In this document: positions 1 to 15,593 of the stretch, piece by piece
Position numbering within the stretch: the stretch's first letter is position 1
How the letters are laid out: the number at the start of each line of letters is the position of its first letter
Source of the DNA: Clostridiaceae bacterium
GTDB lineage: Bacteria > Bacillota > Clostridia > Acetivibrionales > DTU013
Reading direction: 5' to 3'
Length of the DNA stretch: 43,958 nt
NCBI GenBank assembly: GCA_012730015.1
Contig: JAAYBT010000214.1
Location: 1-43,958 of the forward strand
The notes under the pieces: generated by a model
What the model was told of the DNA's origin: nothing
Seen by the model: only the letters and a program-made list of their open reading frames with translations
The model's database searches: none
Translations under genes and position numbers: made by a program

Positions 1-108
1 TTATCAAATGCTCTTAAGACCCCTGCCTCTATAGGCGGGGGATAAACAGATTCACACTTCAGTGGTGGGTTTCAATCCCCCTCTGAAGGAGCATTTGATA
101 AAATGCTC
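1..108. repeat. Palindromic, highly structured intergenic element (possible MITE/IS-end relic or structured RNA)
   Basis: TTATCAAATGCTC (1-13) is the exact reverse complement of GAGCATTTGATAA (89-101). Internal hairpins: CCCCTGCC-TCTATA-GGCGGGGG (20-41) and CTTCAG...CTGAAG (57-62/83-88). Overlapping hairpin GAGCATTT-GATA-AAATGCTC (89-108). May extend left of the window. Confidence 0.7.
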
Positions 109-156
109 GCGGCGCGATACACACAAAACGCATAAGGAAGGCGCTAAAGCGCCCGC

Positions 157-187
157 GGTTTGGCGTACAATTCGCGCAAGCGCTCAT
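157..187 (-). repeat. 31-nt dispersed repeat, copy A, followed by hairpin 140-153
   Basis: Reverse complement ATGAGCGCTTGCGCGAATTGTACGCCAAACC matches 15340-15370 at 29/31 positions. Next to it is the perfect hairpin GGCGCT-AA-AGCGCC (140-153). Confidence 0.8.
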
Positions 188-191
188 AGAA

Positions 192-419
192 TTAGATGAT
201 GAAGGGTTCTATTTCCTCACAAAAGCGTTCACAGTCGTTTGAATGTATCTCTACCCTGATGGGCTTGTTGAAGTCAAGGCTGAAAATCCCCATGATGGAT
301 TTTGCGTCAACCACATAGCGCCCGGATGTTAAATCCACGTCAAAGTCATATTTGTTTGCGATGTTCACGAAATCCTTGACATCATTAATCGTCTTTAGCA
401 TGATATTTACTGCTCTCAT
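192..419 (-). CDS. HPr family phosphocarrier-like protein
   Basis: 75 aa ORF; HPr-like size and pattern (DVDLTSGRYVVDAKSIMGIFSLD); the usual catalytic His motif is not evident. Confidence 0.65.
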   Translation of the reverse strand: MRAVNIMLKTINDVKDFVNIANKYDFDVDLTSGRYVVDAKSIMGIFSLDFNKPIRVEIHSNDCERFCEEIEPFII

Positions 420-13781: not shown

Positions 13782-15236
13782 CTACTTAATAACACCTTGC
13801 AAGTTATCGCTGGAACTCTTAATGCCATGCATTAAATTGTACATATTTTCAATACTTGAATTATGTTCTTCCAATGTTGCTAACAACTCCTCTGTTGAAG
13901 AAGCCTGCACCTCGGATATGCTTGCAATGCTTTCCACCTCGACATGGATGTGTGAAAACAGATTAGCAATGTTTCCAATTCTGCTGATTTCATCAGATAT
14001 GTATCTGCCAATATCCTTAAAAGATACTTGAATCATTTCAAAGTTCTGATTAACAGCTTTGACAACTTTTTCCCCGTCCTGAGTCGCTATCTGTCCTCTG
14101 CTAACTTCATTGAGAACATTTTTGGTTTTATCCTTTATTTGTTGGATGATTTGATTAATCTGAGCTACGGTATTTGCACTTTGAACCGCCAAATTTCTAA
14201 CCTCTTCAGCCACAACTGCAAATCCTTTACCCGATTCTCCAGCTCTAGCGGCTTCGATAGCCGCATTTAGAGCAAGCATATTTGTCTGCTCTGCAATTTG
14301 CGTAATTCCAGAAAGAAAATTATTTACTTCATCCATATTTTCATTCAATTCATTAACGGTCTCCAAGGATTTTGTAACAGACTGGTTGATTATTGCCATT
14401 TGCTTATCCATGGTATTTATCTTTTCCGAACCTTCATCAACTACACCACTGGCGTTCGTTGAAACCGTGTCCAGCTGATCTGAGAACGCTGTCAGCTCAG
14501 ATATTTTCTGATCTGCTTCCTTAATTGCCTGATTAATCTGAGTAACGCTTTTGCTCTGATCAACAATACCCGTAGTAATTTCCTGAGTAGCTGATGTTAT
14601 TGAACTGCTTATTTCACGGACTACTTCAAGTTGCTCGTTGCCCTTTGAGATATCAACGTTTAAAGCTGATGTATTTGTCCTGATTGCATCCATCGTTTTA
14701 TGCAATTCATCTAAAAGCTCCTTGGCTTGTGCTTCTTTTTGATTCGCATTCAGTATAAGCTTTCCGCCCTCTTTTGCCAGAAAGAATATAACTATCGTTA
14801 TAATAATTTGGAAAATATCAGAAAACAAGTTAGCTGCCAGATCGAAATTTGGCGTTCCTAATTGATATATTATCACAGCAGCATTAATAATAATTCCAAC
14901 AACAATATAAAGCCGTTTATTAAAATATAGCGCAGCAATACTGATTGGCAGCATAGCTAAAAGGAAAGCACTACCTTCTGCTACTGGTAATAGAGGAATT
15001 ACTTGCGCCAGAGCTGATGCAACAAGAACATATGTAGCCGCAGTGTCCATCTTCTTTTGCCTTAAATATAAAGCGACGAAGGCTGAAACAATTGTCACCA
15101 AAAGAGCAATAATACTAGAAGCTATAGTTTTTGTGGCAATGCCTGCAATCAACATGATAAATGCCAGTATAAAATATACCCAGTTTAAAATCTTATTAAC
15201 CTTCCGTATGTGGTTCGTTAGCGAATTCTCTCTCAT
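13782..15236 (-). CDS. Methyl-accepting chemotaxis protein with multi-TM N-terminus
   Basis: [40 protein letters not shown]; about six hydrophobic N-terminal segments. Confidence 0.9.
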
Positions 15237-15339
15237 AATTCTTCTCCTATCTGCGGTTTCTTAGTTTATATTTAAATCTTGACATAATATTACCCATTCT
15301 TAACTAATACCAAACTATTTTTTTCTTATCCGTCATTCA

Positions 15340-15370
15340 ATGAGCGTTTGCGTGAATTGTACGCCAAACC
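15340..15370 (+). repeat. 31-nt dispersed repeat, copy B, followed by hairpin 15371-15392
   Basis: ATGAGCGTTTGCGTGAATTGTACGCCAAACC, 29/31 identical to copy A; then GTGTTTTTGCAAAGCAAAACAC hairpin. Confidence 0.8.
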
Positions 15371-15593
15371 GTGTTTTTGCAAAGCAAAACACGCTTCGGG
15401 CCCTTTAAGTACAGTGAAATGGTATAGCTTCGGGCATTATGTCTTATGCCGTGGAAAAGAAAAAGTCACAGCGGAACTCGGATTATGTTTTCTCGCCTTA
15501 TTGAGATTTCTGTTTTGTTTTTTCGAAAGCAGGTTGGATAATGTATTTAATTATGCCGAATACCCGCTAATTTAGCGGGTCTCGGACAATCTG

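Follow-up and report, generated by a model that had tools for sequence, protein, structure and literature searches.

A hairpin-rich interspersed element of clostridia that inserts 3' of TTTAT and is probably moved as single-stranded DNA

The palindromic stretch at the start of the window (a complete contig of 43,958 nucleotides, G000:C159:1-43958, from a Clostridiaceae genome in 278 contigs) is the left half of an interspersed element of about 187 bp, located at window positions 5 to 191. The copies of the element have fixed ends and have been inserted exactly 3' of a pre-existing TTTAT word, with no duplication and with no bases lost or added. We consider it likely that the element is a transposase-less, PATE-like mobile DNA, which is moved as a single strand by a Y1/HUH transposase acting in trans. 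It is because the insertion after TTTAT is exact and lacks a duplication that we read it as transposition of the IS200/IS605 type.

The 8-mer AAATGCTC is located at positions 6-13 and 101-108, with its complement between them at 89-96. The arms at 1-13 and 89-101 are complementary at 13 of 13 positions, while 89-96 and 101-108 are complementary at 8 of 8 positions and enclose a 4-nt GATA loop. The 3 segments and the 13-bp stem were thus found where the earlier note had described them, and well beyond chance expectation. The RNA fold of 1-110 had an energy of -49.4 kcal/mol, which none of 200 shuffled sequences reached (z = -6.6), and the fold of 1-192 gave z-scores of -7.5 for RNA and -6.9 for DNA. 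The 8-mer matched the window 10 times against an expected 2.75, which on its own is weak evidence; the perfect 13-bp inverted repeat, taken together with its multicopy nature and the covariation described below, is not a product of chance. The unit does not end at position 108, as had been proposed, but runs on to 191, and the main partner of 101-108 is the right end of the second half. The structure starts at base 1 because the contig begins at the repeat, and the earlier note was right that DNA to the left would be needed to set the true boundary. The other copies identify bases 1-4 as the end of the flanking target.

The element (5-191, on the plus strand, as are all of its parts) consists of module A, with a closing stem (1-13/89-101) and 2 hairpins, and, to its right, module B, which folds as one long imperfect hairpin (103-187). 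Its ends, CAAATG...CATAGAA, were set from 55 copies and from the comparison of filled and empty sites; complete A+B copies, usually of the form CAAATG...CATTGAA, are about 190 to 340 bp long. TTAT at 1-4 is the 3' part of the flanking target TTTAT and lies outside the element, as empty sister sites keep TTTTAT and the 55 copies have T-T-T-A-T at the left boundary. In the stem described earlier, this TTAT pairs with ATAA at 98-101; GATAA at 97-101 would pair with the target, so that bases 1-4 would fall within that stem.

Module A (5-101) was delimited from the fold, an alignment of 23 sequences and pair counts, and contains the left end, the closing stem and hairpins 1 and 2. Hairpin 1 (20-41, 9 bp), the candidate left recognition hairpin, carries an extra hairpin in its tip in some copies, and directly 5' of it lies AAGA (16-19), a candidate guide for the TTTAT target that was placed by position as in IS608 (PMC5934647). 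Hairpin 2 (57-88) is imperfect, with about 11 bp, and like hairpin 1 it was drawn from the fold and the pair counts. The right arm of the closing stem, GAGCATTTGATAA (89-101), covaries with 1-13 through T-A/C-G exchanges. Module B (101-191) extends to the right end of the element, as defined by the fold, the alignment and copies that consist of module B only; the third AAATGCTC-type segment (101-108) is its left arm and at the same time a direct repeat of 6-13. The right terminus, CATAGAA (185-191), reads CATTGAA in nearly all other copies, and cleavage would occur after position 191.

A gene for a 75-amino-acid HPr-like protein (192-419, minus strand; PF00381, E = 2.4e-7) reads toward the element, and its stop codon (192-194, minus strand) directly adjoins the right end. 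A shortened second copy of module B was identified by blastn and nhmmer (E = 1.5e-9) at 15335-15406 on the minus strand. This remnant is located about 100 bp upstream of an ORF at 13782-15236 (minus strand), whose product we take, from its sequence, to resemble a methyl-accepting chemotaxis protein.

A blastn search with positions 1-300 gave 53 matches in the same genome, which were grouped into about 40 places. Among them are complete copies (1-191), copies reduced to module B (about 95-191) or to module A, and partial deletions. The other 59 genomes of the relatives search, including 7 from the same family, gave no match. Within the class, 10 of 391 genomes carried the element, including the genome studied here, and full-length matches in other families were 81% to 85% identical. 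The right-end pattern of module B was identified in 49 stretches of named clostridial genomes, labelled Ruminiclostridium, Thermoclostridium, Clostridiaceae, Syntrophomonas, Desulforamulus aeronauticus and others. This patchy presence suggests horizontal spread.

A left-end search of 398 genomes from the phylum, directed at longer, coding versions, recovered one further full copy (G762), a fold-back copy (G610) and 2 matches inside or beside coding sequence, and no autonomous element. In the fold-back copies L120 and L189, 2 left ends are joined head to head in a nearly perfect palindrome. The exact palindrome pattern had no match in the collection of genome contigs, and distant blastn searches of plasmids and phages gave no match. 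Neither the palindrome nor the right-end pattern matched the viral contigs; the left-end pattern matched them 3 times, without the remainder of the element, and these matches seem to be due to chance.

The boundaries were the same in 55 copies, TTTATC on the left and CATTGAA on the right, whereas the bases beyond the ends varied, T being overrepresented immediately outside the right end. The C was assigned to the element as its first base because it follows TTTAT in most copies, regardless of the sequence beyond the right end. The most informative empty site comes from another species than that of the window. Here, the copy L097 sits in an unrelated repeat, for which sister copies in the same genome (L159 to L163) and in genome G431 (L164) are empty. 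The empty sites read GTGTTTTAT^CTGAGCG, or a close variant (L159 to L164), and the filled site reads GTGTTTTAT^CAAATG...CATTGAA^CTGAGCG. The copy L113 was inserted at the same position in another copy of the target repeat, and a more diverged, probably orthologous empty site for L106 was found in L151. A scan of 48 copies for target duplications found none; the largest excesses (such as 9 where 4 were expected at k = 2) were taken as noise among several hundred tests. A DDE-type MITE was rejected, as no duplication was seen in the 48 copies or at the empty sites.

It was also noted that the repeat into which L097 and L113 were inserted represents a second, unrelated family, GGTATGTGTTTTAT(C)CTGAGCGTAGCGATGTCATCCTGAGCGCAGCGAAGGATC... 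(L159 to L165, L097, L113), in Ruminiclostridium and Thermoclostridium genomes, which has been a target of the element at least twice. The copies L004, L010, L087 and L125, noted outside any systematic count, are located in the T-run of apparent intrinsic terminators, which fits the TTTAT target.

Pairing is conserved in both modules. For module A, 90.8% of the cells paired across 23 sequences, 11 pairs had changed on both sides (5.8 on average after shuffling, with 11 or more in 1 of 500 shuffles), and double changes were seen in 22 cells (8.3 on average after shuffling, with 22 or more in 0 of 500 shuffles). The clearest exchanges in the closing stem were those between columns 9 and 98 (U-A to C-G) and between columns 12 and 95 (C-G to U-A). 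For module B, 90.6% of the cells paired across 22 sequences and 15 double-change cells were counted against 5.6 in the shuffles, whereas the count of double-change pairs and that of further pair types were not above the shuffles. RNAalifold alone gave a weak consensus for module A. The pair counts, which are inflated by related rows in both modules, mean that the strands stay complementary, equally for a fold formed in RNA or in DNA, and covariation is also expected of DNA hairpins that are required for transposition. The earlier note had named a single-copy locus with no conserved pairing in relatives as the result that would speak against it; the sequence is multicopy, and its pairing is conserved in relatives.

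Insertion strictly 3' of a fixed word of 4 to 5 nt, the lack of a duplication and subterminal hairpins are hallmarks of the IS200/IS605 family (PMC5934647, PMC7290912, PMC6006769). In the element studied here, hairpin 1 begins 15 nt from the left cut and the module B hairpin is located at the right end, with conserved pairs in both. According to the mechanism that we propose, the element would move as single-stranded DNA, and a Y1/HUH transposase provided in trans, a TnpA such as those of IS200/IS605, would bind the hairpins near each end and cut behind both the flanking TTTAT and the terminal TTGAA. A single-strand circle would be excised and pasted after another TTTAT, with the target probably recognized by pairing with an internal guide, for which AAGA at 16-19 is the candidate. 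In IS608, the guide AAAG occupies about +15 to +18, on the 5' side of the left hairpin's base (PMC5934647). Here, AAG(A) occupies +12 to +15 and directly precedes hairpin 1, with no variation at A16, A17 and G18 in 23 copies; by analogy with IS608, AAG(A) may act as the target guide.

Once the element has been inserted, the direct repeats (3-13 and 98-108), and other short repeats as well, would recombine and thereby delete module A or nearly everything, with B-only copies and 20-bp remnants as the products. The shorter forms look like such repeat-mediated deletions: B-only copies have C, T or A at the position that distinguishes the direct repeat 3-13 from 98-108, and the extreme deletion form is TTTATCAAATGCTCATTGAAT. 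Optional extra hairpin modules were observed in the hairpin tips of L082, L090, L094, L098, L115, L120, L123, L112 and L075, some of them common to distant genomes. These modules may be small mobile palindromes themselves.

Among known systems, the element resembles the PATEs, which are ends-only relatives of IS200/IS605 in Haloquadratum and Halanaerobium (PMC3119063, PMC7290912). Like these, it is short and non-coding, has palindromes near its ends, keeps a target word of 4 to 5 nt at its left end with no target duplication, shows repeat-mediated deletions of the core, and outnumbers any transposase. Core deletion and small palindromic repeats that land in palindromes have been described for the Haloquadratum PATEs (PMC3119063), and extra hairpins or small palindromes are likewise inserted in the hairpins of the element. 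Unlike the PATEs, it consists of 2 tandem structured modules, has a 13-bp inverted repeat, formed in part with the target, and had no gene-bearing IS200/IS605 transposon with related palindromes in the genomes searched. PATEs are defined as lacking terminal inverted repeats; the true ends of the element, CAAATG and CATTGAA, are weakly inverted, and the 13-bp repeat is half terminal and half internal.

The element shares with IS608 and ISDra2 insertion 3' of a fixed word (TTAC and TTGAT in these, TTTAT here) with no duplication, subterminal hairpins, and a candidate guide that directly precedes the left hairpin. It differs from them in having no tnpA or tnpB, a length of about 190 bp, and hairpins that are larger and modular. 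Like the REP/REPIN sequences associated with RAYTs, it is intergenic, forms hairpins, reaches a high copy number and has Y1 enzymes as suspects, but it is longer, common to several families, and absent from the flanks of the Y1 (RAYT-like) loci examined; the GTAG/GTGG foot of REP/RAYT systems was not noted in the element, outside any systematic scan. Compared by description rather than by sequence, the Haloquadratum SMRs (PMC3119063), of about 110 bp, also have inverted repeats, no target duplication and no known mobilizing enzyme, but SMR-A targets PATE palindromes, whereas the element uses TTTAT in intergenic DNA.

The element is non-coding and encodes no TnpA. The link to TnpB of IS200/IS605 elements that the earlier note had raised was not borne out, since neither TnpB (PF07282) nor Y1 (PF01797) genes were detected in the host assembly, which is 87% complete, and the end of a TnpB/omega-RNA element was rejected for want of PF07282 in this genome. 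No copies were found at the flanks of 30 Y1 loci in host genomes, none of the optional hairpin modules was seen near Y1 genes at the 10 loci checked, and neither an autonomous element nor an IS200/IS605 transposon with the same ends was found in the genomes searched. A Y1 gene was present in 14 of 16 host genomes, which is no more than the base rate in relatives (33 of 40), and this co-occurrence was dropped as support. It was also noted that RAYT-like Y1 genes encoding about 250 to 330 amino acids occur in these clostridia (L132 to L138, L171 to L186), many of them with a repeat of the AAAAGAACCGTCCCC type close downstream, which is presumably a REP-like sequence of their own. The case for an IS200/IS605 connection comes from the insertion signature only, from which we infer the mobilizing enzyme, and the element is classified here as working like IS200/IS605 and not as a proven member.

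A duplication-free element might also be moved by an enzyme other than Y1, such as an unrecognized recombinase acting on folded DNA in the manner of an integron integrase on attC sites. The genome's lack of a Y1 gene, the absence of a parent near any Y1 gene examined, and the shape of module B, which is one long imperfect hairpin, would all fit such an enzyme. Insertion strictly 3' of a 5-nt word without duplication is however textbook Y1 behaviour (PMC5934647), and the many scattered sites speak against a site-specific integrase, so that we regard this explanation as unlikely. Less probable still is a structured RNA or mRNA-processing element, with hairpins in 3' or 5' UTRs, that has been kept for its function and for which mobility was secondary or ancient. 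It would account for the covariation in both modules and for 2 biases, although these were calculated from simple ORF calls and non-independent copies: copies between co-directional genes are found 28 times in sense and 9 times in the opposite orientation (p = 0.003), and the right end is nearer to downstream starts (median 64) than the left end is to divergent starts (183; p = 0.006). The mild orientation bias is not predicted by the transposition model, and the biases in orientation and start distance leave room for an effect on mRNA. Many copies have however been shortened or deleted at will, the presence of the element is patchy, every gene context occurs with no common neighbour gene, and a search of Rfam at gathering and E-value thresholds gave no match, in agreement with the earlier statement that no structured RNA could be named.

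We find it very hard to believe in a conformational RNA switch, in which 89-96 would alternate between 6-13 and 101-108. The 3 mutually complementary segments do exist, and the second and third segments have both changed from ATG to the ACG form in L092, L109 and L122, but direct repeats can be homogenized by recombination. When the 89-108 hairpin is forced, the fold of 1-110 loses 5 kcal/mol and that of 1-192 loses 7.3 kcal/mol; the pair probability of this hairpin is about 4e-5. The first and second segments pair at 8 of 8 Watson-Crick positions in 18 of 28 copies, and the second and third segments in 2 of 28, a few palindrome-derived duplicate rows being included in both counts. The third segment is accounted for as the left arm of module B, and the contexts are scattered with no common downstream gene. 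The earlier suggestion of a switch or a hairpin-recognized mobile end thus holds for the mobile end, as indicated by the multiple copies, the fixed ends, the empty sites and the TTTAT insertion without duplication, and not for the switch.

Transposition by a Y1/HUH transposase in trans is accordingly the explanation that we prefer, and the copies probably represent a new clostridial family of ends-only single-strand elements; no description of it was found in the literature searched, which was covered in part. More tentatively, they could belong to a widely shared, transposase-orphan clostridial family of modular hairpin elements, which would transpose via folded single strands, depend on a new enzyme or on a resident Y1 enzyme wholly in trans, and grow by hairpins acquired at the tips.

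An unexplained palindrome has in this way become a defined mobile element with known ends, a target and empty sites, the mobility of which can be tested. The element also probably explains why contigs break at these repeats. To the ends-only single-strand elements it adds a clostridial case that spans multiple families and for which no parent transposon was found, with hairpins inserted into hairpins and stepwise deletions that leave as little as 20 bp.
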